A stretch of DNA of 42,337 nucleotides. Origin: Minisyncoccota bacterium. Its GTDB lineage: Bacteria > Patescibacteriota > Minisyncoccia > Phycocordibacterales > UBA12079. Positions within the stretch are counted from its first letter, which is position 1. Each line of letters starts with the position of its first letter. The DNA lies in contig JAGMBS010000003.1 in NCBI GenBank assembly GCA_023129575.1, positions 1 to 42,337 of the forward strand, in the 5' to 3' direction. Of the stretch, positions 645 through 27,947 are shown in pieces. A program made the translations under genes and the position numbers. Below the pieces are notes generated by a model. It searched no databases and had not been told where the DNA came from. It saw only the letters and a program-made list of their open reading frames with translations.

Positions 645-680
645 TAAATTACTTCTCGCTGTTTTTTCTTCAAACACAAA

Positions 681-701
681 CTTGGACGTCTCACGTCCAA
701 G
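681..701. repeat. 21-nt palindromic element, CTC centre (RAYT-left copy 1)
   Basis: Arm CTTGGACGT, centre CTC, arm ACGTCCAAG; perfect 9-3-9 palindrome. It forms an inverted pair with the GAG-centred copy at 745-765, 43 nt apart, directly upstream of the RAYT gene. This is a REPIN-like arrangement. Confidence 0.9.
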
Positions 702-744
702 TCAACATTCAAGCACATGTTCAAGTATCTTATCCCCATCTAAA

Positions 745-765
745 CTTGGACGTGAGACGTCCAAG
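745..765. repeat. 21-nt palindromic element, GAG centre (RAYT-left copy 2)
   Basis: Arm CTTGGACGT, centre GAG, arm ACGTCCAAG. It ends 19 nt before the RAYT start codon and is the reverse complement of the copy at 681-701. Confidence 0.9.
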
Positions 766-784
766 TGGTAATATATAAAACATA

Positions 785-1486
785 ATGAGAAAAGTTCCAT
801 TTGTACAAGGCGAATATTATCATATTTATAATCGTGGAGTTGATAAACGAGCGATATTTGGCGACATTTTTGATGTATTAAGATTTTATCAAAGTATGGA
901 AGAATTTAATGTTATTGAACCGATTGGCAGCATTTATGAAAATCGTTTCAACAAAAAAGATAAAACTAAACTTGGACGTGAGACGTCCAAGTCAGGAAAA
1001 TTAGTAGATATTGTGGCTTATTGTCTTAACCCGAATCATTTCCATCTTATATTAATTCCTTTGGTGGAAAATGGAATTAGTGAATTTATGAAAAGATTGT
1101 CAGGTGGATACACTAAGTTTTTTAACATAAAATATAAGAGAAGCGGAGCTTTATTTCAAGGGAATTTTAAAGATGTTCACATTGATACTGATGAATATCT
1201 AATGTATGTAAGCGCCTATGTAAACTTAAATAATCGTGTTCACAAACCACTTGGACGTGAGACGTCCAAGTTTAAGTTGATGAAGTCAAGTTGGAATGAG
1301 TATATGAATACAAAAATAATTAAAGATAAAAAAGGTGACAATAAGTTATCAGGCAATCCAAATGATATTTGCCAAAAGGACATTATTTTAGAGAGATTTG
1401 ATGACATAAGAGATTATAAAAAATTTGCTGAAAGCGCATTACAAAGTATTTTAAAAAGGCGATATGAGATGGATACATTGGAATAA
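785..1486 (+). CDS. REP-associated tyrosine transposase (RAYT, Y1_Tnp family)
   Basis: A 233-residue single-stranded-DNA transposase of the Y1/HUH family (TnpA_REP). It would nick and rejoin hairpin DNA at REP palindromes. Visible family features are the N-terminal YHIYNRGVDKRAIF block, the HUH metal-binding pair H85-F86-H87 in NPNHFHLIL, and a likely catalytic Tyr145 in SAYVNLN, which corresponds to the family YIHLNPV block. The gene contains two perfect 21-nt palindromes read as LGRETSK (residues 63-69 and 156-162). Neither breaks the frame, and the motifs are intact, so it may still be active. Palindromes also lie on both sides of it (681, 745, 1524). No Shine-Dalgarno sequence is visible before the ATG. 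The codons are AT-rich compared with pyrG downstream, fitting a mobile origin. Confidence 0.88.
   Translation: MRKVPFVQGEYYHIYNRGVDKRAIFGDIFDVLRFYQSMEEFNVIEPIGSIYENRFNKKDKTKLGRETSKSGKLVDIVAYCLNPNHFHLILIPLVENGISEFMKRLSGGYTKFFNIKYKRSGALFQGNFKDVHIDTDEYLMYVSAYVNLNNRVHKPLGRETSKFKLMKSSWNEYMNTKIIKDKKGDNKLSGNPNDICQKDIILERFDDIRDYKKFAESALQSILKRRYEMDTLE
971..991. repeat. 21-nt palindromic element inside the RAYT gene (copy 1)
   Basis: Perfect CTTGGACGT/GAG/ACGTCCAAG copy, exactly codon-phased, read as LGRETSK (residues 63-69) between the N-terminal block and the HUH motif. Confidence 0.9.
1250..1270. repeat. 21-nt palindromic element inside the RAYT gene (copy 2)
   Basis: Perfect GAG-centred copy, codon-phased, read as LGRETSK (residues 156-162), just after the catalytic-tyrosine block. 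Confidence 0.9.
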
Positions 1487-1523
1487 TTTTGCTCAGGTAC
1501 TTTGTTTTCAAAATTTAGACAAA

Positions 1524-1544
1524 CTTGGACGTGAGACGTCCAAG
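1524..1544. repeat. 21-nt palindromic element, RAYT-right copy
   Basis: Perfect GAG-centred copy 37 nt after the RAYT stop and upstream of the pyrG promoter. It closes the palindrome-flanked RAYT locus on the right. Confidence 0.9.
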
Positions 1545-1597
1545 TTTGAAAGTTAGGTATTTGTGAGTTTTGAAAAGAGAAAAAAATAAGAGAAAAT

Positions 1598-1633: not shown

Positions 1634-3325
1634 ATGAAAAATCGCAAGTATATTTTTGTTGCCGGAGGAGTGATGTCCGGCATAGGCAAAGGCATTACCG
1701 TTTCTTCCGTCGGAAAAATCTTGCAATCGCGCGGTTTCAAAATCACCGCCCTCAAAGTTGACCCCTATGTGAATGTGGACGCCGGCACAATGAATCCCAC
1801 CGAGCACGGCGAAGTGGCTGTTCTGGATGACGGTTATGAAACGGACCAAGATATGCTCAACTACGAGCGTTTTTTGAATGTGACTTTGCCGAATTTAAAT
1901 TATATGACGACCGGGCGGGTGTATCGTTCCGTTATAGAGCGGGAAAGAAATCTTGGTTACAAAGGCAAATGCGTGCAAGTTGTTCCCCATATTCCCTTGG
2001 AGATAATCGGGCGGATTGAAAAAGCGGCCAAATTGGCCGAGGCCGATATTGCCATCATAGAAATTGGTGGCACCATTGGCGAGTATGAAAATATTCTTTT
2101 TTTGGAGGCGGCGCGAATGTTAAAAATAAAGTATCCAAAAGATGTTTTGTTTATTATGCTTTCTTATTTGCCGATTCCAAGCAAAATCGGCGAGATGAAA
2201 ACTAAGCCGACTCAGCACGCGGCGCGCGCCTTAAACGCTACCGGCATCCAGCCGGATATTTTGATTGCCCGCAGCGAGGTTCCCTTGGATAAAAAACGAA
2301 AAGAAAAAATAGCGTTATTTTGCAACATTAATGCCGAAGATGTGATTTCCGCGCCGGATGTTGAGAGCATTTACGATGTTCCTCTTAATTTTGAAAAAGA
2401 TAAAATTAGCGATTCAATTATCAAAAAACTCGGGCTTCAAAAGCGAGCTAAAAAAAGCAATCTCAAACGCTGGAAAAATTTTGTGAAAAAAACTCATAAT
2501 GGCGGCCGGGAAATTAATATCGCCATTATCGGAAAATATTTTGACTCGGGCGATTTCGTTTTGTCCGACGCTTACATTTCCGTCATAGAAGCGATTAAAT
2601 TTTCCGCTTACAAAATAAATTGCAAACCGAAAATTCACTGGCTTAATTCCAAAGATTTTGAGGGCGGACGGGCGGACGGGCAAGCCCGTCCGCCTGTCCG
2701 CCGGCTGGCAGCGCTTAAAAAATATGACGGCGTGATTGTGCCGGGCGGTTTTGGTTCAAGCGGGGTAGAAGGGAAGATTAAAGTTATTCAATACGCGCGC
2801 GAAAACAAAATTCCGTTTTTCGGATTGTGCTACGGAATGCAATTGGCGGTGGTGGAATTTGCGCGCAATGTTCTCGGGTGGAAAGACGCGCACACTGCTG
2901 AAATTAATCCTCGGACAACTCACCCCGTTATTGACATAATGCCGGAGCAAAAAGAAAAATTGGCGAGGGACAACTATGGCGGAACAATGCGTCTCGGCGC
3001 GTATCCGACTGTTCTTAAAAAGGGGACAATTGCCCGCGCGGCCTACGGCCGCGCGGAAATCTCCGAACGCCACCGCCATCGCTTTGAAGTCAATCCGGAA
3101 TTCATTTCGCGGCTCACGCAAGCGGGGTTGATTTTTTCCGGAACTTCGCCGGACGGGCGATTGATGGAAATTGTGGAACTTGGACATACTATGTCCAAGT
3201 TGGGGAAATTGGCGGAAACACATCCGTTTTTTGTGGCGACTCAATTTCATCCGGAGTTTTTGGCGCGCCCGCTTTCTCCCCATCCGCTTTTCACGGAATT
3301 TTTGAAAGTCTGCAAGAAAAAATAA
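1634..3325 (+). CDS. pyrG: CTP synthase
   Basis: A 563-residue enzyme that makes CTP from UTP, ATP and glutamine; cytosolic, pyrimidine synthesis. The N-terminal synthetase domain starts with the P-loop block GGVMSGIGKGI and continues through NVDAGTMNPTEHGEV. The C-terminal class I glutamine amidotransferase domain has VPGGFGSSGVEGK, nucleophile Cys399 in FFGLCYGMQ and a His-x-Glu near HPEFLARP. ATG 1634 is chosen because of the promoter at 1620 and because homologs start just before KYIFVAGG. Two palindromic sequences look inserted: a 40-nt GC-rich hairpin at 2663-2702 in the interdomain linker, and a diverged 21-nt palindrome at 3179-3199 near the C-terminus. The protein is about 20 residues longer before the active Cys than the E. 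coli enzyme (Cys379). Confidence 0.97.
   Translation: MKNRKYIFVAGGVMSGIGKGITVSSVGKILQSRGFKITALKVDPYVNVDAGTMNPTEHGEVAVLDDGYETDQDMLNYERFLNVTLPNLNYMTTGRVYRSVIERERNLGYKGKCVQVVPHIPLEIIGRIEKAAKLAEADIAIIEIGGTIGEYENILFLEAARMLKIKYPKDVLFIMLSYLPIPSKIGEMKTKPTQHAARALNATGIQPDILIARSEVPLDKKRKEKIALFCNINAEDVISAPDVESIYDVPLNFEKDKISDSIIKKLGLQKRAKKSNLKRWKNFVKKTHNGGREINIAIIGKYFDSGDFVLSDAYISVIEAIKFSAYKINCKPKIHWLNSKDFEGGRADGQARPPVRRLAALKKYDGVIVPGGFGSSGVEGKIKVIQYARENKIPFFGLCYGMQLAVVEFARNVLGWKDAHTAEINPRTTHPVIDIMPEQKEKLARDNYGGTMRLGAYPTVLKKGTIARAAYGRAEISERHRHRFEVNPEFISRLTQAGLIFSGTSPDGRLMEIVELGHTMSKLGKLAETHPFFVATQFHPEFLARPLSPHPLFTEFLKVCKKK
2663..2702. repeat. GC-rich hairpin inserted in pyrG linker
   Basis: 19-nt arms (one mismatch), loop AA, built from repeated GGCGGAC units. 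It is codon-phased and read as GGRADGQARPPVRR in the linker between the synthetase and amidotransferase domains, where homologs have a short acidic loop. A similar core (GTCCGCC/GGCGGAC) lies between dnaG and rpoD at 41092. Confidence 0.75.
3179..3199. repeat. Diverged 21-nt palindrome in pyrG
   Basis: Arm CTTGGACAT, centre ACT, arm ATGTCCAAG: same 9-3-9 layout and outer bases as the main family but with ACAT instead of ACGT. Codon-phased, read as LGHTMSK, between EIVE and LGKLAETHP. Confidence 0.75.
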
Positions 3326-7000: not shown

Positions 7001-9559
7001 ATAGACAATAGCGGCAACGTCGGCATAGGGACGACGACGCCACAGGCGGCATTAGATATCCAAAAACCCGCGACGGGGGATTATCTAAACATATCAAATG
7101 ACTTGCACGGGGACATAGTTACGGTCAATAGTTCGGGAAATCTCGGCATCGGCACGACGGCACCTACAGCCAAGTTAGACATAGACGGCACATCTAAATT
7201 TGGTGGAATAATAAATACAGGTGGTAATTGGATAAGCGGAGACGGAGGTGCGGAGGGAATTAGTGTTGACAGCGATGGAAAAGTCGGCATCGGCACGACG
7301 GAGCCAGAGGCGAAGTTGCATATGAAATCAGCATCCGCAGTGATAGCCAAATTTGAAGGAACAGGATCAAATGATGCTTTTCTTTCTTTTGATGTTCCTG
7401 CTACTCGTAATGCACTTATGGAATTTAAAGAAAACGATGTTGGTAAATGGTATATTGGAAATGTAGCGGCTAATGATAGATTTGAATTTCATAATGGTAC
7501 TAGTGAAGTTTTTTCAATTTTAAGTTCGGGCAACGTCGGCATCGGGACGACGAGTCCGAGTAGATTATTTCATGTGAGTCATGCTACTACTAATGATGTT
7601 GCTCAGTTTGAAAGTTTAGACGAGAAGGCTGGAATAATTTTAGCTGACCCAACTGGGAGTGTAGCATTAGAAACTATCGGTGGTGATTTTAGGGTGGATG
7701 TTACTGGTGATGGGAATTATGAGTTTTATGTCAAAGAGGACGGCAACATCGGCATCGGCACAACGGGGCCGGATGAGAAGTTGCATGTTAAAGGCGGAGT
7801 TTGCATTACAGACAGCGATACTTGCGCCGGCTCTCCAGGCGATGGCGATATATGGATACTTGGCAATATGTCCGCTCTCTCTGTTACCGACCGCACGCCC
7901 ATTTTTGAAGGCGACGCTTTGTCTGAAATCAAAAAAATTAAGGGAAAAGACGGGAAAATTGACCACTCCACTTTGCCGGAATTTGTGCGGGCGGAGATAG
8001 AAAAACCAATTTTTGAAAAACGGGAAGTGGAAGAAGAATTTTTTGACGAGGAATTAAATAAGACAATAATTAAATTGGTTGAAAAGGATACGCAAATCGG
8101 AACCCGCGTGGCAACAGAAAGAAATCTTGGCAATATGATTTCAATGAATGTGAGGGCTATTCAGCAATTGGCGGAAAAAATGGGAAACAAGGTTTTCAAG
8201 GGCGATGTCATCAATTACAACGCCGGGCAATTGGCGTTGGAAAATGACAGCGGCGAGCCGCAAATGAAAATCGCTTTTGACGCCGAAAATTTTGCCGAGC
8301 TGCAAGTTAACGCGGTCGGGGATTTGACGATTACGACGGCCGGCGCCGATTTGAATTTGCCGAACGACAATTTGTCTGTTTGTTCGGGGGGAGCGTGTCC
8401 GGCGGCCGCGCGTCAAATGAACGGCGCCGGCAACTTAACAGTGGAGAATACCGCTTTTGTCGCCGGAGCTTTGGGTGTCGGCACCAGCAGTCCGGACCGC
8501 GTTTTTAATGTTTTTGAAACGGCCGCGCGCCCGCAGATGAAAATTTCTTATGACACCGATAATTACGCCGAGCTGCAGGTCTCGGCCGCGGGGGATTTGG
8601 CCTTGAGCGCGCGCGGAGGCGACATTCGCCTGCCGAATGAAAATTTGGCTATTTGCTCGGGCGGCGCCTGCCCTGCTTCCGCCGGCCTTCTAACAGGAGC
8701 GGGAAATTTAACGGTGGAAAATACGGTCTTTGTGGCGGGCGCCTTGGGCGTGGGAACCGCTCGACCCGGCCGCGCTTTGGATGTTTTTGAAACGCGCACC
8801 AGCCCGCAGATGAGAATTTCCTATGATGAGGATTTGTATTCCGAACTGAATGTCTCCGCCACGGGCGATCTTATAATTTCAGCCCGGGGCGGCGATGTCT
8901 CCATTTTAAACGAGAATTTTAAGATTTGTTCGGAAAACGGCTGTCCGGCGGAAGCAAACCTCTTAAACGGCGCGGGCAATCTGGTGGTGGAAAACAGCAT
9001 TTTGGCCTTGGGCGGCATCGGAATAAACACCGCCTCCCCGTCTTATACTTTGGATGTGAACGGCACCTTGCGGGCTTATGGAATTACGGACGCTTCGGAT
9101 GAGCGGTTAAAAACAAATATCCAAAATCTAAGTGAACTTGGACGTGAGACGTCCAAGTTGAATTTGAACTTGGACGTCTCACGTCCAAGTGGGTCAAGTG
9201 GATTAAACGGGACTCTGGCTAAAATCAACAATCTCCGCGGAGTAACTTTTCATTGGCGCAATGCCGACTTGGGAACTGCTCGGCAAATCGGACTGATTGC
9301 GCAAGAATTGGAAATAGAATATCCGGAACTTGTGAGCACCGATAACAAAGGTTTTAAATCAATTCAATACGGCAAATTCACGGCGGTTTTGCTGGAGGCC
9401 GTCAAAGAATTATTTAGTATGAGCCGAACAATTGAATACAGATCCGCGAATTTGGAGAACCGAACGGCGGATTTGGAAAAGCAAAACAAATTGCTCGCGG
9501 CCAAAACAGAAAAATTGGAAGAGCGTCTGCGCGCCCTTGAGCAAATACTTGTCCAATAA
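4031..9559 (+). CDS. Giant secreted repeat protein with C-terminal Peptidase_S74 chaperone domain
   Basis: An 1842-residue surface or secreted protein. The N-terminus is basic followed by a hydrophobic stretch (AAFVLLFSLIFSPFNSAFSFA), fitting a signal peptide or membrane anchor. The middle holds many GN(V/I)GIGTT-x-P beta-repeats (from about 4906 to 7790) separated by variable cassettes, two copies of a GTVLGGTWQGT module (near 5068 and 5368), and three tandem repeats of about 90 residues with PQMKI, CSGGACP and GAGNLTVEN motifs (8260-9060). The end is a Peptidase_S74 intramolecular chaperone domain, with SDERLKTNI carrying the expected catalytic Ser and then IGLIAQELE, closing with a coiled coil after residue 1790. 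In phage tail fibres and some adhesins such domains trimerise the fibre and then cleave themselves off. Two 21-nt palindromes interrupt the S74 domain. A role as a trimeric adhesin or fibre is inferred. Confidence 0.85.
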   Translation: MKIEINKKITVKKAAKERLNRLSRSLAAFVLLFSLIFSPFNSAFSFAEDNESSGFLNFKTGLNATAFFVFKTINSWFQISDSDSEQKKSQTEGSFLQSQTETIAEGGRATPALPLAPADSSAAETQISAGQKLIKKIAQLSPPAILPQALSVQSAGISQEELARELNILENSLKAEIYRMASQLAPAAPAAQTPASNFQAIALSQRIDNLDQVTISNATISKSTFSGSTGTITDLTATDLTATDFTTANLSASNNSYFTALSQGSIPFIGASGLLLQDNTNLFWDDTNNRLGLGTITPNYTLDVSGDIRTSATLYASTTEITNLTITTASSTQLTVSDKSWLGTVLGGTWQGTIIGDDYITKTGDWSGTVSGSYTGFGNDFYTYFNATSTNALAEGASNLYWTQNRWDQAMTATTTLPTITTLLNLTNASTTQLTVSDKSWIGTVLGGTWQGTSITDTYIDDDITLTNITQITSRAISDTSGTLLVGRGGTGLTTLTSGSILYADGDDNLTALASSTDGYVLVLDANGRPSWNDFTGTGKVVYDTSPTFTTGITVPADSISHTELSEGDAFTWTGSHSFSGAGDIDLPADSVDAGDVNFNYAASGSEGGSATSGDSASAFFSTGTIEHEYGGLQADVGSYAGLLSITGGATAQVDSVSELNALLLGESVASTTNVWADAYISSASTWNAKWDALSDISLAHKSIFVGDSSGHPVATSTITVLDSGFVGIGTTVIGTPNQLWSSGTPIVEIGGVTSNMYSLLNLAGKDNDDGANVAVITFNNMENSDASDATSQNLAAIYAQTETSDSNAGDDSGGHLVFLTKPEAGTAAERMRIDSDGNIGIGTTTPTALTHILQTGATDAFRVDDELADTSPFVIDDDGNVGIGTDSPTSKLHLPSENDETTPTLSFGDGDSGFYERNDDELAVSLGGVGKFYFGSSWVRYLGNGWLLKNSNTSSTNPAFSFEGDVDTGIGRAGANELSLITGATERIRIDNSGNVGIGTTTPQAALDIQKPATGDYLNISNDLHGDIVTVNSSGNLGIGTTAPTAKLDIDGTSKFGGIINTGGNWISGDGGAEGISVDSDGKVGIGTTEPEAKLHMKSASAVIAKFEGTGSNDAFLSFDVPATRNALMEFKENDVGKWYIGNVAANDRFEFHNGTSEVFSILSSGNVGIGTTSPSRLFHVSHATTNDVAQFESLDEKAGIILADPTGSVALETIGGDFRVDVTGDGNYEFYVKEDGNIGIGTTGPDEKLHVKGGVCITDSDTCAGSPGDGDIWILGNMSALSVTDRTPIFEGDALSEIKKIKGKDGKIDHSTLPEFVRAEIEKPIFEKREVEEEFFDEELNKTIIKLVEKDTQIGTRVATERNLGNMISMNVRAIQQLAEKMGNKVFKGDVINYNAGQLALENDSGEPQMKIAFDAENFAELQVNAVGDLTITTAGADLNLPNDNLSVCSGGACPAAARQMNGAGNLTVENTAFVAGALGVGTSSPDRVFNVFETAARPQMKISYDTDNYAELQVSAAGDLALSARGGDIRLPNENLAICSGGACPASAGLLTGAGNLTVENTVFVAGALGVGTARPGRALDVFETRTSPQMRISYDEDLYSELNVSATGDLIISARGGDVSILNENFKICSENGCPAEANLLNGAGNLVVENSILALGGIGINTASPSYTLDVNGTLRAYGITDASDERLKTNIQNLSELGRETSKLNLNLDVSRPSGSSGLNGTLAKINNLRGVTFHWRNADLGTARQIGLIAQELEIEYPELVSTDNKGFKSIQYGKFTAVLLEAVKELFSMSRTIEYRSANLENRTADLEKQNKLLAAKTEKLEERLRALEQILVQ
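4076..4107. repeat. Hairpin in signal-peptide region of the S74 protein
   Basis: Perfect 15-nt arms (AAGGAACGGCTCAAC) around AG, read in frame as KERLNRLSRSL just before the hydrophobic segment. A relative with core GAACGGCTCAA is in rpe at 16596-16621. Confidence 0.8.
4342..4370. repeat. GC-rich hairpin in the S74 protein
   Basis: 12-nt perfect arms GGAGGGCGGGCG and its complement around CGCGA; read in frame as GGRATPALP in a low-complexity segment. Confidence 0.7.
9137..9189. repeat. Pair of 21-nt palindromes inside the S74 domain
   Basis: GAG-centred copy 9137-9157 read as LGRETSK (residues 1703-1709), and CTC-centred copy 9169-9189 read as NLDVSRPS (residues 1713-1720). The 11-nt gap makes an inverted pair. 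They sit between SDERLKTNIQNL and LAKINNLRGVTF, a loop that is short in ordinary S74 domains. Confidence 0.9.
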
Positions 9560-10575: not shown

Positions 10576-11082
10576 ATGTTCAAAAAATACCAACCCAATT
10601 TTCGCTCTAAATTTTCCGCGGGCGGCCGGGGAAAACGAGGCGGTTTTCGCGTGCGCGGCCCGATTAAAAGTTTCCGCGATTTGGATGTTTATACCAAAAG
10701 CACGGCTTTGTCGGCGGAGATTTTTGCTTTGCGCGCTCCCAAGAATTTTGAATTGGACGAGGAATTGAAAATTCTAAAAGACCTTTCCAAATATATTCCC
10801 AAGATGATCGCGGAAAGTTACGGCAACCGTTTTGATAATTTTGCCGTGGCGGAACGAAAATTGGAAAAAACGGCTGAAATTATCACGGCGATTATTTCCA
10901 AACTTGATTTTATAATTTTGGTTCTCAAAGGCAAAGAAAAAATTTCTCTCGCGGAAGAAATTAAAGAATTCCAGGAAAAAATGGAACGGCTGTTAAAAGA
11001 TTATTCCACTCTCCGCGCTAAAACATTAAATCTCAAAAGGGCTTGGATTAGAATTAACGAAAATTTCAACAAAAAAACTTAG
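10576..11082 (+). CDS. Four-helix-bundle-like protein (S23/Avd-type, divergent)
   Basis: A 168-residue protein. Residues 1-32 are Gly/Arg/Lys-rich and probably nucleic-acid binding. From residue 33, SFRDLDVYTKSTALSAEIFAL resembles the first helix of the S23/Avd four-helix-bundle family, and three more amphipathic helices follow. Family members include proteins encoded in 23S rRNA intervening sequences and the accessory protein of diversity-generating retroelements, but no reverse transcriptase is present here. Its stop codon lies within a 21-nt palindrome that also contains the next gene's ATG, only 7 nt downstream, so the two are probably co-transcribed. Assignment to the family is tentative. 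Confidence 0.6.
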   Translation: MFKKYQPNFRSKFSAGGRGKRGGFRVRGPIKSFRDLDVYTKSTALSAEIFALRAPKNFELDEELKILKDLSKYIPKMIAESYGNRFDNFAVAERKLEKTAEIITAIISKLDFIILVLKGKEKISLAEEIKEFQEKMERLLKDYSTLRAKTLNLKRAWIRINENFNKKT

Positions 11083-11098
11083 GCATTAGATGCCTAAG
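11078..11098. repeat. 21-nt palindrome forming the stop/start junction of two genes
   Basis: Arm CTTAGGCAT, centre TAG, arm ATGCCTAAG. The TAG stop of the upstream gene (11080-11082) lies in the left arm and the ATG at 11090 in the right half. Same 9-3-9 architecture as the main family with a different core. Confidence 0.8.
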
Positions 11099-12181
11099 TT
11101 AATGTGTATCTGTATGAGAAAAGAAAAGGAAAAAGAAAAAAAAGAAAAAATATTGACGCATTGCCCTTATTGTCAGGGTAAAACAATCGTTAAAAGCGGA
11201 GTGAGAAAGAAAAAACATGAAGCGGTCCAGATTTATTATTGCAAAAATTGCGAGAAAAAATTTGTGTCCGGAGTAACCAAAAATTTAACCTACCCCTTGC
11301 GGGTAATTTTGGAAGCGATTACCAATTATAATTCTTTTAATTCTTTGGAGGAAGCGGCTCAAATGGCGGGGGAAAAATACGGCTTGCCGGTGAGCGCCCA
11401 GAATGTCAATAATTGGCTGAAAGGTTTTAAGGAATATCTGCCCTTTGCCCGAATGCGGGATTATATCGCGAAAAAATACGACAAGCGGGATATTTTTGTC
11501 CGGTCCAAATTATTTCACGGCCAAATTTATGATTTTATATATCACCGCGCAAAATTAAATTGTATTTTGGATGAATTTTTTAAGCATCAAAAATTCAAGC
11601 CCTTGCAAAGTTTTTTGGAAATTATTGACGCCGAATGCCCCCACCAGATTTTTCAGGAGAGCTCCAAACGGGCGTCCGAATATAAAAATGTTTTCAATTT
11701 GGACCAGGTTAAAATCACTCCCCGCCCCAATTTTGCCGTGAAAATGGCGCGGCTTGTTATCCAAACGGTGTTGAATAACAAACTTCGCCACGAGGTCCTG
11801 CAGAATTTTATGCTGGTTAATGATTCGGTAACCGTGGCGACGGAGCTGCCGATCTTGCTGGACAAGGCGGACCTTGACCATTATAAAAACACTTTGAAAT
11901 TTGTCACGCCCTTGGAATTGGCGGAGGGCGAAGTCATAACCGGCCATATTGACATAGTGCAAGTCAGAAACGGGGCGGTGCATATTTTGGATTATAAGCC
12001 GAGTGCCAAAAAAGTTAAACCGCTTGAGCAATTGACGATTTACGCTCTCGCCCTGTCCCGTTTAACCGGTTTGAAACTTTTTCATTTCAAATGCGCCTGG
12101 TTTGACGAGAATGATTATTTTGAGTTTTATCCTCTCCATGTCGTAATGAAAAAGAAGAAAAATAAAGCGGCCGTCCGATAG
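11090..12181 (+). CDS. Zinc-ribbon/HTH - PD-(D/E)XK nuclease fusion protein
   Basis: A 363-residue protein with two parts. Residues 25-60 form a zinc ribbon (C25-x2-C28, then YYCKNC) of the kind seen in IS1-type transposase InsA proteins, followed by a helix-turn-helix-like segment (SLEEAAQMAGEKYGLPVSAQ, NVNNWLKGF). The C-terminal 110 residues are a RecB/Cas4-like PD-(D/E)XK nuclease: Asp288 in GHIDIVQV, Asp301-Tyr302-Lys303 in HILDYKPS, then the Q-x3-Y helix in QLTIYALALS. It is likely a DNA-binding nuclease, target unknown. ATG 11090 lies inside a palindrome; ATG 11102 and 11114 are alternative starts. No cas genes or transposon ends are adjacent. The middle (residues 110-260) is unassigned. 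Confidence 0.7.
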   Translation: MPKLMCICMRKEKEKEKKEKILTHCPYCQGKTIVKSGVRKKKHEAVQIYYCKNCEKKFVSGVTKNLTYPLRVILEAITNYNSFNSLEEAAQMAGEKYGLPVSAQNVNNWLKGFKEYLPFARMRDYIAKKYDKRDIFVRSKLFHGQIYDFIYHRAKLNCILDEFFKHQKFKPLQSFLEIIDAECPHQIFQESSKRASEYKNVFNLDQVKITPRPNFAVKMARLVIQTVLNNKLRHEVLQNFMLVNDSVTVATELPILLDKADLDHYKNTLKFVTPLELAEGEVITGHIDIVQVRNGAVHILDYKPSAKKVKPLEQLTIYALALSRLTGLKLFHFKCAWFDENDYFEFYPLHVVMKKKKNKAAVR

Positions 12182-12282: not shown

Positions 12283-14529
12283 ATGTTTGATCAAATAATT
12301 GATCTGATTAAAGAGAGTGTTACAACCGTGGTTGCTTTGGCTGTGGGCGTTTTAGGGTTGGGCGATGCGGCATTGTTTAACCCGGATGTTGTTCCGCCGG
12401 CGGAGGATATTAAGATTTCCGAAGACCTGCCCGCCGGTGAGGCGGGATTGTCGGATAACGCGGATATTTTTGAAACGCAATTGGCGAGTATCTCGCAAGC
12501 GCTGCAAGGCGATGAGGGCGGCGGCTTTGCCGCCGCCCCGACCGAGAGCGCCGACGGCGCTCTCGCGCTTGCGGAAAATACCCAAACAGCTGTTGAAAAC
12601 GAAACACAGCTTGCTCCGCTGCTCACGTCAACCGAGCCGGAAATTCGCCCGATTAATCCGATTAAATCCACCAAACAAACAAAGCCGGTGGATGTTTCGT
12701 CTCTGCTCAAAGAAGATTTTGATAAATTTGACGCTAATTTGCAAATTACGAAAATAATTGAAGACGGGGGTAATTTTTATGTTAATTATCAATTTTTGTC
12801 TTACGGAATAAAAAATAAAATTTGGACGAAAATTTTAAAGGAAAAAAAGATGCTGGTTTCCGAAACTCTTTTGGGAGAAAAAAATTTGAGCGCTTATCTT
12901 TCCGAGGAATTGGGCGAAGTGCTTGATAATGAAATTGTCTTTCTGAAAGAAGTTCAAGAAATTCAAAAAGTCAAGCAGGCCAAAACTGAAAGCGCGGCCC
13001 AAGGGGCTCAAACAATTTCATCAAAATACAGCGCCTTGATTGGTCGGGTGCTTGATGTGAATAATGAACAATTTGGCGATTATATCCCCGTTGCAACGGA
13101 AGAAAAAACAGACAATTTAATAAATGACGGCAGAGTTGATGAAGAAAAAACAGACAATTTAACAAATGACGGCCGAGTTGATAACGAAGCGCCAATTATA
13201 ATTATCCAAGGAAATAATCCGGCTTTGATTCAAATTGGTTCAAGTTATATAGATTTGGGAGCGAAAGCGGTTGATAATATCAGCAATAATTTAGATGTAA
13301 AGATTAGCGGTGATTTAGTGAATACCGAAGTTAAAGGTTCTTATTTTGTCATTTATACCGCTACTGACGAAGCCGGCAACGTCGCCACAGCGACCAGAGA
13401 AGTGATTGTTTATGATTATGGCGCCGCGCCGGAAGTGAAGCAAATTGAAAAACCGGCCGCGCCGGAACCGCTTATAGAGATTGTCACGGAAAAACCGCTT
13501 GTAAAAATTAACGCGGAACCGGCCGCGGAGGAGAAAAAGCCGGCAGCGGTTATTGAGAAAAAAGAAATAATAGCGACAACAACGGAAATTGCGGCGGACG
13601 AAACGGCCACGACAACAATAATGATGGCGGACGAAACAGCGACCACAACCGCGCCGGCGGCATCGTCGGCATCTGTGATTGAAACAATAAAGGAAGCGGC
13701 GGCAAAAACGATTGATACAACATTGGAAACATCCGGCGCTGTTGTTGAGGGAGTTGTGGAAGGCGGCAAGAAAGCGGGCCGTAAAATTGGCGAAAAAACC
13801 AAGGAAGCGGTTGAGATTATAAGCGAGACAACCGAAGCGGCCGCGGAGACAATTAGCGAGACAAGCGCCGCGGCGCTTGAACAGGTTTCCAAAGCGCTTG
13901 AAACCGTGACGGAGGAGGTTTCAGCGATGATTAAAAAAGTTCATTTTATGGAATTGCTTGGCAATATCCGTTCCGCTTTGCAATCAAGTGTCGTGGTTGC
14001 CGGCGAGGGAACCACTGAAATTTTTGAACTTATGGAACAATTTTTGCGCCCGGCGGCGGAAAATACTTATTTGATTATAAATTCGGCGGCGCGTAAAACT
14101 TATGGCGCTTTAATAAATATTTGGCAAAAAATAGGCATTAACCAAGCAATTGCTCGGATTTCAGACCGCGTCATTGCCAATATCAGCGATTATAAAAAAG
14201 AAAACGATTTGTTTGTCAAAGAAGAAAATTTTGAACCCGACGGAACCGTCGGGTTTGAACCCGACAGAACCGTCGGGTTTGAATATTCGGAATATCAAGA
14301 AAGAAATTTTACCGGTTTTGTGTTTGGTAAAACAATAGAAATAGCAATAACGGCTCTTGATAAAACAATCAATCTCGCGTCCGCGCTGACCGCGACCGTC
14401 AGAGATTTCGGCGGAATCGTCAGTTCGGATTTGAAAGATGTTGGTGCGGAAGTTGATCAAAAAATAAATGAGACGGATTTTAGCGTTAAAGCTCTGCTCA
14501 ATTTTTTCAGAAATCATCGCCCGCTCTAA
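12283..14529 (+). CDS. Ig-like (DUF5011-type) domain protein with amphipathic repeat tail
   Basis: A 748-residue protein, probably envelope-associated. The N-terminus has a short hydrophobic stretch (VTTVVALAVGVLGLG), which may be a membrane anchor but is not a classic signal peptide. Residues about 304-383 match the bacterial Ig-like DUF5011 pattern: EAPIIIIQGNNPALIQIG, YIDLGAKAVDN, then GSYFVIYTATDEAGNVA. After a Pro/Ala/Glu/Thr-rich linker, residues about 460-560 form Ala/Glu/Thr amphipathic repeats (ETTEAAAETISETSAA). Two short tandem repeats are present, 14 residues twice (13099-13182) and 8 residues twice (14234-14279). Several GC-rich hairpins lie in the N-terminal low-complexity region. 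Function unknown; a structural surface role is a guess. Confidence 0.7.
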   Translation: MFDQIIDLIKESVTTVVALAVGVLGLGDAALFNPDVVPPAEDIKISEDLPAGEAGLSDNADIFETQLASISQALQGDEGGGFAAAPTESADGALALAENTQTAVENETQLAPLLTSTEPEIRPINPIKSTKQTKPVDVSSLLKEDFDKFDANLQITKIIEDGGNFYVNYQFLSYGIKNKIWTKILKEKKMLVSETLLGEKNLSAYLSEELGEVLDNEIVFLKEVQEIQKVKQAKTESAAQGAQTISSKYSALIGRVLDVNNEQFGDYIPVATEEKTDNLINDGRVDEEKTDNLTNDGRVDNEAPIIIIQGNNPALIQIGSSYIDLGAKAVDNISNNLDVKISGDLVNTEVKGSYFVIYTATDEAGNVATATREVIVYDYGAAPEVKQIEKPAAPEPLIEIVTEKPLVKINAEPAAEEKKPAAVIEKKEIIATTTEIAADETATTTIMMADETATTTAPAASSASVIETIKEAAAKTIDTTLETSGAVVEGVVEGGKKAGRKIGEKTKEAVEIISETTEAAAETISETSAAALEQVSKALETVTEEVSAMIKKVHFMELLGNIRSALQSSVVVAGEGTTEIFELMEQFLRPAAENTYLIINSAARKTYGALINIWQKIGINQAIARISDRVIANISDYKKENDLFVKEENFEPDGTVGFEPDRTVGFEYSEYQERNFTGFVFGKTIEIAITALDKTINLASALTATVRDFGGIVSSDLKDVGAEVDQKINETDFSVKALLNFFRNHRPL
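12427..12565. repeat. Cluster of three GC-rich coding hairpins
   Basis: CCCGCC/GGCGGG near 12429-12446 (read LPAGEAG), GGGCGGCGGC-TTT-complement at 12516-12538 (read GGGFAAAP), and CGAGAGCGCC-GAC-complement at 12543-12565 (read ESADGALA). All are in frame in the low-complexity N-terminal part of the Ig-like protein. Confidence 0.6.
13099..13182 (+). repeat. 42-nt tandem repeat, two copies
   Basis: Copies at 13099-13140 and 13141-13182 differ at two bases and encode EEKTDNL(I/T)NDGRVD twice, just before the Ig-like domain. Confidence 0.85.
14234..14279. repeat. Tandem pair of 22-nt hairpins in the Ig-like protein
   Basis: AACCCGACGG-AA-CCGTCGGGTT at 14234-14255 and a copy with one arm mismatch at 14258-14279, a 24-nt period. 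Read in frame as EPDGTVGF and EPDRTVGF. Confidence 0.85.
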
Positions 14530-14650: not shown

Positions 14651-15784
14651 ATGCAAACTCCAAAAAAAATCAAAGTGGCGATTAACGGTTTCGGGCGAAT
14701 TGGCAGAGCTTTTTTTAAATTGGCGATTGAAAATCCAAGAATTGAAATTGTGGCGGTTAATGATTTGGCCGATATTGAAAACCTCGCTTATCTTCTCAAA
14801 TACGACAGTCCTTATCCAACTTGGACGTCTCACGTCCAAGTGATGGATTTAAACTTGGACGTGAGACGTCCAAGTGAACCAAGTAAAAATATTTTGCAAA
14901 TTGCCGGCAAAGATATTCCGTTTTTTAGCGAGCCGGATCCGTGTTATTTGCCGTGGAAGGATTTGAAAGTGGATATTGCGGTAGAAGCGACCGGAATTTT
15001 TAATACCTATCAAAAAGCGCGGGCTCATCTTGAAGCGGGCGCGAACAGAGTTATTTTAACGGCCCCCGCCAAAGATGAAACAGAGGCGGATTGTTGTTCC
15101 GCCGCGCGGAACAACAATCCGCCTCAGCCGCTTCAAACTCCCGATTACGGCGTCATTGGCAAAACAATTTTAATGGGCATCAACGATGAGGAATTAAAAG
15201 ATTGTCAAATAAGCGCCAACGGCTCTTGCACCACCAACGCGGTTAGTCCGGTTTTACAAATTCTCAATCAAAGCATCGGCGTGGAAAAAGCGCTTCTAAA
15301 TACGATTCATTCCTATACCGCCGCCCAAAAAATAGTTGATTCCGCCGACAAAAAAGATTTTCGCCGCGGCCGCGCCGGCGCGCAAAATATTATTCCGACT
15401 ACAACCGGCGCCGCCAGCGCGACCACTTTGGCGATTAAAGAATTGGCGGGGCGCTTTGACGGACTGGCGGTTAGAGTGCCGACCGTGCTGGGTTCACTGG
15501 CCGATTTAACTTTTACGGCCAAGAGAAATACGAGCGAAAAAGAAATTAACAAGATTTTGAAACAGGCCTCCCAAGAGGAAAAATGGCGAGGGATTTTTAC
15601 AACCACCGAAAAGCCGGTTGTTTCTTCGGATATTATCGGGAACATTTACGCTTCCATCGCCGATTTATCATTGACAAAAGTTGTGGGCGGAAATCTTGCC
15701 AAAGTTCTGATTTGGTATGATAATGAAATGGGTTACGCCAACACTCTCATTAAACATATAAATAAAATAAGAGAGATTTTATAA
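14651..15784 (+). CDS. gap: Glyceraldehyde-3-phosphate dehydrogenase with palindrome-encoded insertions
   Basis: A 377-residue glycolytic enzyme converting glyceraldehyde 3-phosphate to 1,3-bisphosphoglycerate. It has the NAD-binding GFGRIGR block at the N-terminus, Asp after AVN favouring NAD, nucleophile Cys193 in NGSCTTNAV, the PTTTGAASATTLA and GLAVRVPTVLGS segments, and the C-terminal WYDNEMGY. It is about 40 residues longer than usual (E. coli about 331, Cys near 150). The excess is explained by palindromic DNA: residues 57-75 come from a pair of 21-nt elements (read TWTSHVQV and NLDVRRPS) and residues 145-159 from a 43-nt hairpin. All catalytic motifs survive, so it is probably active. 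It opens a gap-rpiB-rpe-transketolase run. Confidence 0.96.
   Translation: MQTPKKIKVAINGFGRIGRAFFKLAIENPRIEIVAVNDLADIENLAYLLKYDSPYPTWTSHVQVMDLNLDVRRPSEPSKNILQIAGKDIPFFSEPDPCYLPWKDLKVDIAVEATGIFNTYQKARAHLEAGANRVILTAPAKDETEADCCSAARNNNPPQPLQTPDYGVIGKTILMGINDEELKDCQISANGSCTTNAVSPVLQILNQSIGVEKALLNTIHSYTAAQKIVDSADKKDFRRGRAGAQNIIPTTTGAASATTLAIKELAGRFDGLAVRVPTVLGSLADLTFTAKRNTSEKEINKILKQASQEEKWRGIFTTTEKPVVSSDIIGNIYASIADLSLTKVVGGNLAKVLIWYDNEMGYANTLIKHINKIREIL
14820..14874. repeat. Inverted pair of 21-nt palindromes inside gap
   Basis: CTC-centred copy 14820-14840 read as TWTSHVQV (third frame) and GAG-centred copy 14854-14874 read as NLDVRRPS, 13 nt apart. They replace or extend the loop after LLKYDS where typical GAPDH has a GRF motif. 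Confidence 0.92.
15083..15125. repeat. 43-nt perfect hairpin inside gap
   Basis: 19-nt perfect arms (starting GAGGCGGATTG) around CCGCG. Exactly codon-phased, read as EADCCSAARNNNPPQ (residues 145-159) in the surface loop between TAPAKDET and the strand before GINDEE. Confidence 0.9.
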
Positions 15785-18337: not shown

Positions 18338-18349
18338 TAAGTAAAATAT

Positions 18350-18370
18350 ATTATATTATTATATATAATA
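18350..18370. promoter_or_regulatory. AT-rich operator-like sequence, upstream copy
   Basis: A 21-nt sequence (ATTATATTAT followed by TATATATAATA) between the wHTH promoter and its start. It is identical to 18711-18731 on the other side of the gene. Confidence 0.55.
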
Positions 18371-18407
18371 TTATAAAAATAATGTATAAATTAATTCAAA
18401 ATTTCAT

Positions 18408-18701
18408 ATGAAGTTCACAGGAAAACAGGTAAAATTGTTGGAGCTTTTTTCAAAGGCGGTAGCAAACAGAAACAGAATTAAAATTTTAGTTTTAATTAAC
18501 AAAAAACCTAAATTAAATGTTGCGGAAATTTCAGATATTTTAAAAATGAATTACCAATCTGGAGCAGTTCATATTCAAAGATTGGAAAAAGTTGGTTTTG
18601 TATATAAAAGATATAAAGGTTTGTCAGTAGAACATGTAATTACTGAAAGAGGTAAACTTTTTTTAATTTTTTTTGAAAAAATTTTGAATTTAAAATCTTA
18701 A
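18408..18701 (+). CDS. Winged-helix transcriptional regulator (ArsR/MarR-like)
   Basis: A 97-residue single-domain wHTH protein. It has LFSKAVANRNRIKILVLIN, a recognition-helix region LNVAEISDILKMNYQSGAVHIQRLEKVGFV, then a wing YKRYKGLSVEHVITERGKLFL. This matches the ArsR-type N-R-I-K-I-L start and helix spacing, but no metal-binding cysteines are present. The gene is very AT-rich. Identical 21-nt AT palindromic sequences lie just upstream (18350-18370) and just downstream (18711-18731, within a 40-nt perfect palindrome), suggesting autoregulation and perhaps control of mnmA. Confidence 0.75.
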   Translation: MKFTGKQVKLLELFSKAVANRNRIKILVLINKKPKLNVAEISDILKMNYQSGAVHIQRLEKVGFVYKRYKGLSVEHVITERGKLFLIFFEKILNLKS

Positions 18702-18704
18702 AAT

Positions 18705-18744
18705 TAATACATTATATTATTATATATAATAATATAATGTATTA
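18705..18744. promoter_or_regulatory. 40-nt perfect AT palindrome, downstream operator-like copy
   Basis: Perfect inverted repeat with 20-nt arms beginning TAATACATTATATTATTATA, ending 25 nt before mnmA. It contains the same 21-nt core as upstream of the wHTH gene. It could be an operator, a bidirectional terminator stem, or both; no T-run distinct from the stem is present. Confidence 0.6.
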
Positions 18745-18769: not shown

Positions 18770-19918
18770 ATGAAAAATAAAATAAATTATAAAAACAAAA
18801 AGGTTTTTGTGGCTTTGTCCGGCGGAGTGGATTCATCGGTGACGGCGATTTTGCTTAAGAAACAAGGTTATGCCGTGACAGGTGTTTTCATTAAAGTTTG
18901 GCAACCCGATTTTGCGGGAAGCCAATGGAAAAAAGATTGCGCCGACGCTAAACAAATTTGCGATATTTTAGATATTCCCTTTGTTGTTTTAAATTTGGGA
19001 AAAGAATATCGGCGGAGTGTTTTTGATTATATGATTACCGAATACCAAAAGGGACGGACGCCCAATCCGGATGTAATGTGCAATAAAAAATTGAAATTCG
19101 GGGCGTTTTTGGACTTTGCGTTAAAAAATGGAGCGGATTTTATTGCTACAGGACATTATGTTTATACGAGTGAAAACTTGGACGTCTCACGTCCAAGTTT
19201 AAAACTTGGACGTGAGACGTCCAAGTTTTTTAAATCTAAAGATAGGAAATTGATGGCGGGAGCGGATAAAAATAAGGATCAGTCGTATTTTCTTTGGACA
19301 TTAACGCAAAAGCAATTAAAGTATTGCCTTTTCCCGATTGGACAATACAAAAAATCTCAAGTCAGAAAATTGGCAGAGGAGTTTGGATTGCCTACTGCCC
19401 GGAAAAAAGACAGCCAGGGCCTTTGTATTATTGGAAAGGTAAAAATGAAAGAATTTTTACGGCGTTTTATTCCCCAGAAACAGGGAGATGTTTTGAATCA
19501 AGACGGAGAAATAATTGGTCGGCATAAGGGAGTGTATTTTTATACATTGGGTCAAAGGCATGGATTTGAAATTAGCAAAAAAGGCGTCCTGGACAAACCG
19601 TATTATATTTTTGCCAAAGATTTCAAAAATAACAGCTTGACTGTTTTGAATAAACCGGCCGGGGGTTTTGCTTCCAAGTATGGAAAAAACGAGATTGAGA
19701 TTAAGGACATTAATTGGATTGCCGGCGCGCCGCCCGATTTGAGCAGGAAATACAAGGCCAGAATCAGATACCGCCAGCCCTTACAAGGTTGCGGTTTACA
19801 AAACAATGCCAAGAAAATAATTGTTAAATTTGATATTCCGCAGTGGGCGGCGACTCCCGGGCAGTCGCTTGTTATTTATGACGGCGAAATATGTCTTGGA
19901 GGCGGAGTGATTGTTTGA
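18770..19918 (+). CDS. mnmA: tRNA-specific 2-thiouridylase MnmA
   Basis: A 382-residue enzyme that thiolates U34 of tRNAs for Lys, Glu and Gln. It has the PP-loop ALSGGVDSSV, GRTPNPDVMCN with catalytic Cys104, ATGHYV, DKNKDQSYFL, and SQGLCIIG with Cys219, followed by the C-terminal beta-barrel. In E. coli the cysteines are at 102 and 199; the 18-residue larger spacing here equals the insertion of two 21-nt palindromes read as NLDVSRPS and LGRETSK (residues 136-152) just after ATGHYVYT. Its stop overlaps the -10/-35 region of the next gene. Confidence 0.96.
   Translation: MKNKINYKNKKVFVALSGGVDSSVTAILLKKQGYAVTGVFIKVWQPDFAGSQWKKDCADAKQICDILDIPFVVLNLGKEYRRSVFDYMITEYQKGRTPNPDVMCNKKLKFGAFLDFALKNGADFIATGHYVYTSENLDVSRPSLKLGRETSKFFKSKDRKLMAGADKNKDQSYFLWTLTQKQLKYCLFPIGQYKKSQVRKLAEEFGLPTARKKDSQGLCIIGKVKMKEFLRRFIPQKQGDVLNQDGEIIGRHKGVYFYTLGQRHGFEISKKGVLDKPYYIFAKDFKNNSLTVLNKPAGGFASKYGKNEIEIKDINWIAGAPPDLSRKYKARIRYRQPLQGCGLQNNAKKIIVKFDIPQWAATPGQSLVIYDGEICLGGGVIV
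19177..19225. repeat. Inverted pair of 21-nt palindromes inside mnmA
   Basis: CTC-centred copy 19177-19197 (read NLDVSRPS) and GAG-centred copy 19205-19225 (read LGRETSK) with a 7-nt gap; together residues 136-152. Confidence 0.92.
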
Positions 19919-21335: not shown

Positions 21336-21339
21336 ATTA

Positions 21340-21459
21340 CAAAATCCAAATTATTCCAAATTACTCAAATTAAATCCAAATGACAAAATCCAAAATTTGT
21401 TTGACATTTGAATTTTGGATTTCATTTGGAATACTTTGGATTTTGGATTTTGAAATTTT
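21340..21459. repeat. 120-nt AT-rich intergenic repeat, copy A
   Basis: Built from AAATCCAAA, CAAATTA and their complements, internally an imperfect inverted repeat. About 85% identical by eye to 27828-27947. It fills the frr-rseP gap. Confidence 0.75.
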
Positions 21460-27750: not shown

Positions 27751-27827
27751 AGGATGTTCAAGGACAAAGTTTAAGTCTTTGATAAGAAGATTTTAATTTT
27801 GAATTTAAAATTTTTGCTTAATTATTC

Positions 27828-27947
27828 CAAAATCCAAATTATTTCAAATTACTCAAATTAAATTCAAATGACAAAATCCAAAACACAATTTGACATTTGA
27901 ACTTTGGACTTGATTTGAAACAATTTGAGTTTTGGATTTTGAAATTT
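27828..27947. repeat. 120-nt AT-rich intergenic repeat, copy B
   Basis: Second copy of the 21340-21459 repeat, same orientation, upstream of the greA promoter. Confidence 0.75.

Follow-up and report, generated by a model that had tools for sequence, protein, structure and literature searches.

In-frame palindrome pair in mnmA and a divergent REP/RAYT-like gene bearing the same palindrome in a Minisyncoccota genome

mnmA Gene and Its Insert

The DNA analyzed (the window) was a 42,337-nt stretch from an ultra-small bacterium with a draft genome of 654 kb in 48 contigs, designated G000; its relatives are designated G001–G010, G006 being a complete, single-contig genome. All genes and palindromes located in the window are given on its + strand. 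The mnmA gene, coding for tRNA 2-thiouridine(34) synthase, was found at 18770..19918 with an insert in its reading frame. Its ORF of 382 aa scored 409 bits in a profile search with the NCBIfam MnmA equivalog (cut-off of 284 bits), and the PP-loop SGGVDSS and both cysteine motifs were intact, which identifies the product as MnmA. The catalytic cysteines had been placed at positions 104 and 219, with a spacing of 115, by a sequence-only reading of the window; a recount on the ORF confirmed this. Directly upstream of mnmA, AT-rich 32-nt inverted repeats (18345-18376 and 18712-18743, 94% complementary) flank a 97-aa ORF (18408-18701).

The insert (51 nt, 19176-19226) consists of a 23-nt palindrome, ACTTGGACGT-CTC/GAG-ACGTCCAAGT, present twice in inverted orientation. 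The first unit, ACTTGGACGTCTCACGTCCAAGT, with a CTC loop (19176..19198; residues 136-143, phase 1), is followed by 5 nt and by its own exact reverse complement with a GAG loop (19204..19226; residues 145-152, phase 2); adjoining runs of A and T extend the pair to a perfect 28-base inverted repeat with a 1-base center. Residues 136-152 are thus palindrome-encoded, as previously read from the letters, and form the 17-residue peptide NLDVSRPSLKLGRETSK with the frame kept. The window contained 12 palindrome matches versus none in 100 shuffles, the chance expectation being zero.

The spacing of the catalytic cysteines was 92–96 in insert-free members of the family (G004, G005, G007, and G008) and 109–116 in insert-bearing members, so that the excess in MnmA amounts to 19–23 residues. 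The sequence-only reading had derived an excess of 18 residues from the E. coli spacing of 97: the net excess is real, but E. coli is a coarse yardstick compared with family members. The pair supplies 17 of the excess residues, and the remainder is drift of the neighboring loop; the junctions of the insert are only approximate, identity to insert-free relatives being 56–71%. In the alignment, the loop had a length of 38 aa versus 15–19 aa in insert-free relatives, supporting the view that this is a true net insertion into a conserved enzyme with intact motifs. The insert was placed in the loop between ATGHY and KDQ solely by alignment to solved MnmA sequences; a single-sequence structure model (pLDDT 35) was discarded for the question of a surface hairpin.

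RAYT Gene of the Window

A divergent gene for a REP-associated tyrosine transposase (RAYT; Y1_Tnp) was found at 785..1486, 18 kb upstream of the insert, with the HUH pair H85/H87 (motif HFH at 85-87) and the candidate catalytic Tyr145. It is flanked by its cognate palindromes: two upstream (CTC, 680..702; GAG, 744..766) and one downstream (1523..1545). Two more lie inside its frame, at site A (970..992) and site B (1249..1271). The exact palindrome is common to MnmA, the RAYT flanks, and the RAYT interior. The product passes Pfam PF01797 (Y1_Tnp) with 27.1 bits versus a cut-off of 23 and stays below the curated cut-off of its sole NCBIfam family match, NF047646 (REP_Tyr_transpos), with 25 bits versus 80.

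A PDB sequence search with this RAYT gave no match. In a model built from four sequences (pLDDT 51), both internal palindromes fell in low-confidence loops (49-70 and 127-169). The best fold matches of this weak model were IS200-type TnpA (E 5e-3, prob 0.96), TnpA of the IS200/IS605 group (IS608, ISDra2) being the nearest predicted structural neighbors. IS608 and ISDra2 are insertion sequences that are autonomous and use guide tetranucleotides; ends of IS200/IS605-type insertion sequences were not identified here.

Only two Y1_Tnp genes were present in genome G000, and several palindrome subfamilies there had no matching RAYT. The second RAYT, a distant one (L066, G000:C1:39669-40139), is surrounded by its own palindromes, TGACGGACGTCCGACGTCCGTCA.

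Palindromes across the Genome

Genome G000 contained 16 exact copies of the palindrome, 1 near copy, and 5 copies of a variant in which changes in one arm are compensated in the other. With the wider pattern ACTTRGN11CYAAGT, at least 53 copies in at least 6 subfamilies were found, whereas the reversed control gave none. When any loop was allowed, the palindrome was also found in other Patescibacteria records. The window makes up 6.5% of the genome and bears three of the seven dispersed sites of the MnmA palindrome subfamily (p=0.008).

All 53 copies were read in context, and 36 of them lay in Pfam-supported frames. The inserted genes encode CTP synthase, MnmA, GAPDH, Fpg, a glycosyltransferase (GT4), PheT, transketolase (TK), Dus, an endo/exonuclease-phosphatase (ExoEndo), ArgRS, a thioredoxin-reductase-like protein, enolase (Eno; three), LigA, ComEC, SMC, TsaD, HolB, RsmA, Tgt, a PAP2 protein, an S74 protein, and RAYT itself; IleRS was also inserted, with two stretches both matching one G006 gene. 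Codon phases of the 36 in-frame copies were distributed 17/17/2, the Trp-coding phase being avoided (p=0.002). Inverted pairs, the arrangement expected of REPINs, were found in MnmA, GAPDH, GT4, PheT, S74, SMC, and TsaD; single copies were common too.

Within the window, the variant palindrome ACTTGGACATACTATGTCCAAGT lies in frame in CTP synthase (3178..3200), where 11 aa are absent in G004, and the 1842-aa Peptidase_S74 protein carries in frame a GAG palindrome (9136..9158) with its CTC partner (9168..9190). GAPDH contains in-frame CTC (14819..14841) and GAG (14853..14875) palindromes; the excess left over was about 12 to 13 aa versus 19 aa for the pair, and the empty-site junctions were not clean. 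A palindrome of another subfamily, ACTTAGGCATTAGATGCCTAAGT, lies at a gene boundary (11077..11099). The sequence-only reading had singled out MnmA as the clearest case, but a singular status is not supported, since numerous other genes contain members of the family of the MnmA palindrome and elements have landed repeatedly in the MnmA loop.

The mostly intragenic position distinguishes these palindromes from canonical GTAG REPs, which are predominantly extragenic, and the GTRG tetranucleotide was found at the hairpin foot of only 2 of the 53 copies. Together with the NCBIfam score of the RAYT below its cut-off, this means that the name should be a divergent REP/RAYT-like system and not a canonical member. 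Protein-coding palindromes of the Rickettsia type (RPE, CGTC-tagged), spreading with no dedicated transposase, were considered as well: short in-frame palindromes, frequently dimers, occur in many housekeeping proteins of R. conorii and O. terrae according to PMC3733652, as they do here. This reading is nevertheless improbable: the ends are ACTT/AAGT in place of terminal CGTC, most subfamilies lack CGTC entirely, and a RAYT bears the same palindrome, which proved to be the rule at RAYT loci.

MnmA Loop in Relatives

A tree of ten family members joins G003 and G004 as sisters, with G002 beside them, and G000 with G001. The ATGHY-KDQ loop contains a palindrome pair in G000, G001, G002, and G003, with all stems different and the phase order always 1 then 2; it is short and without a pair in G004, G005, G007, and G008; and a hairpin of another kind was found in G006 and G010. 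The sequence-only reading had held that loops of the same length and unrelated sequence in close relatives would speak against an insertion. Loops of similar length and different sequence do occur in G001, G002, and G003, but these are also palindrome pairs with the same order of codon phases. An adaptive peptide in MnmA, the palindrome being incidental, would agree with the intact ORF and the in-frame position; it is very improbable, because unrelated genes and the RAYT locus carry identical DNA, and relatives lack the peptide or have other ones.

On the family tree, at least four changes in the occupancy of the MnmA loop are required, and even the sister pair G003/G004 differs. Among 36 MnmAs of the order, hairpin DNA was present in 12 of the 20 long loops and in none of the 16 short ones, and it was of several unrelated kinds; the loop is therefore hit recurrently, by palindromes of unrelated types as well. 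Both results favor repeated independent insertion, in which the same few loops are hit because they are the sole tolerant ones or are preferred targets of the RAYT, and in-place replacement is unneeded. We rate this reading somewhat below an even chance; the constant phase and pair order at the MnmA site of G000, G001, G002, and G003 speak against it. The MnmA loops of L250, L236, and L244, which belong to other families, contain unrelated palindromes, CCCG..CGGG or CCCCCTCTTAA...

Orthologous Sites in G004 and G006

We compared the inserted genes of G000 with their orthologs in G004 and G006. Another hairpin was present at 8 of 30 orthologous sites, versus a background of 0.9% (p=3e-10): MnmA, Fpg (both), ExoEndo, ArgRS, Eno, LigA, and TsaD. 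A looser hairpin criterion gave 10/30 against a background of about 10% and included doubtful cases (Dus, TK), and the stricter count is preferred. The G006 palindrome GACTGGGTCNGACCCAGTC has six copies: three at one RAYT (two in the flanks and one inside) and three dispersed ones, all in frame (Fpg, LigA, TruB). The copies in Fpg and LigA sit exactly at the element sites of G000.

Codon phase was preserved at the Eno, ExoEndo, and ArgRS sites and in the G004 Fpg copy and the first G004 TsaD copy; in TsaD of G004, a decayed copy of the G000 subfamily adjoins the palindrome of G004's own RAYT. Both facts count against independent insertion. An assembly artefact or a decayed gene, which the draft state of the 48-contig genome might suggest, is scarcely credible, as the pattern recurs, in frame, in many separate genomes including a single-contig one.

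RAYT Loci across the Order

RAYT relatives were found in 177 of 297 sampled genomes of the order; of 50 relatives, all have the HUH motif and 49 the Y-N motif. A cognate palindrome was present within the RAYT frame at 43 of 50 loci, versus 8.9% when flanks were swapped between loci; a few of the internal matches (L057 site B, L065 site A, and L091 aa43) are weak. The internal copies occupy two sites, at approximately residues 50–68 and 145–163, in one codon phase in 58 of 61 copies. Their mean similarity was 0.94 to their own flanks and 0.66 to the same-site copy of the nearest RAYT (56/59, p=6e-11), and palindrome similarity correlated with RAYT identity (Mantel 0.38, 0/1000). Position and phase within RAYT genes are thus constant while the sequence tracks the flanks, which also argues against independent insertion.

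Probable Origin and Turnover of the Insert

The insert in MnmA is very probably a miniature REPIN that was most likely spread by the RAYT 18 kb upstream, is tolerated as a coding insertion, and undergoes sequence turnover at fixed sites. It would consist of two oppositely oriented REP-like hairpins, 23 + 5 + 23 = 51 nt or 17 codons, stop-free in tolerated frames, and such a pair would leave the reading frame unbroken. By analogy with TnpAREP, the RAYT would recognize the GAG/CTC hairpin (its own palindrome is ACTTGGACGTGAGACGTCCAAGT) and move single-stranded units. Its survival would be due to a unit that preserves the frame and to its position in a permissive MnmA loop.

Given the repeated gain, loss, or rewriting of elements in the MnmA loop among related species, the elements appear to turn over at fixed sites, the RAYT interior included. 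That positions stay constant while sequences vary from locus to locus points to replacement in place, by the RAYT or by conversion, and not only to fresh insertion. More tentatively, and just short of an even chance in our estimation, the current RAYT may direct this overwriting, swapping old hairpins in its own gene and in housekeeping genes for its own; coding palindromes would then be rewritten at fixed sites as RAYT specificity shifts. Copies inside the transposase gene may hold it in linkage with its own substrate.

Comparison with Known Systems

REPINs and the co-evolution of RAYT and REP are already known, as described in PMC2817692 and PMC3116915. The system analyzed here resembles them in having a Y1 HUH transposase gene with flanking palindromes, dispersed inverted pairs, and co-variation of palindrome and transposase. 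It differs in that the palindromes lack the GTRG head of studied RAYTs, are mostly intragenic, and have a low copy number. It also differs in that copies lie in the transposase frame at two fixed sites: E. coli rayT, checked for an internal cognate palindrome, has none, and the available portions of the RAYT papers contain no mention of one. Single-stranded REP hairpins are both bound and cleaved by the TnpAREP enzymes investigated, and the perfect 23-nt REP of Stenotrophomonas depends critically on its 3-nt loop (PMC8266576); the perfect stem and asymmetric 3-nt loop are shared by the palindromes found here.

PMC3733652 already describes in-frame REPs and their dimers from Rickettsia, Opitutus, and others, and the likeness extends to in-frame palindromes in functional proteins, often as dimers. 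The same source describes the Rickettsia CGTC repeats as having no dedicated transposase, whereas a transposase is present here, and its available text contains no mention, for CGTC elements, of the same-site sequence turnover between genera found in our analysis.

Literature searches on REP/RAYT yielded no paper dealing with Patescibacteria, and a REP/RAYT-like system in this group is new as far as the literature searched shows. The same holds for a palindrome at fixed sites inside the RAYT frame, for protein-coding palindromes tied to a RAYT of the same sequence, and for same-site turnover between genera. With a candidate transposase whose own gene bears coding palindromes at two conserved positions, and this in numerous genera of a small-genome bacterial order, it becomes possible to test how in-frame palindromic inserts arise. 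The system also adds a rare case of non-allelic sequences changing together at fixed sites and explains many odd insertions in the housekeeping proteins encoded by these genomes.

Other Repeats and Insertions

Two tRNA synthetase frames contained domains unexpected in such enzymes: a histidine-phosphatase domain (PF00300) in the IleRS-like frame L023:2-2041 and an NlpC/P60 domain (PF00877) between B3/4 and B5 in the PheT frame L022:1284-2999. In the window, a second kind of in-frame palindrome, AACCCGACGGAACCGTCGGGTT, forms a tandem pair in a 748-aa protein (14230-14280), these two being the only close copies genome-wide. A CCCGCC/GGCGGG hairpin (12424-12447) encodes DLPAGEAG, and the same peptide was found at the G004 transketolase site, which suggests yet another family of coding palindromes. 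Near-identical intergenic repeats rich in AAATCCAAA/TTTGGATTT were found at 21336-21458 and 27824-27947, and similar repeats, AATTTCCAATTTCC, were present in coding loops of MnmA and TsaD of G006.
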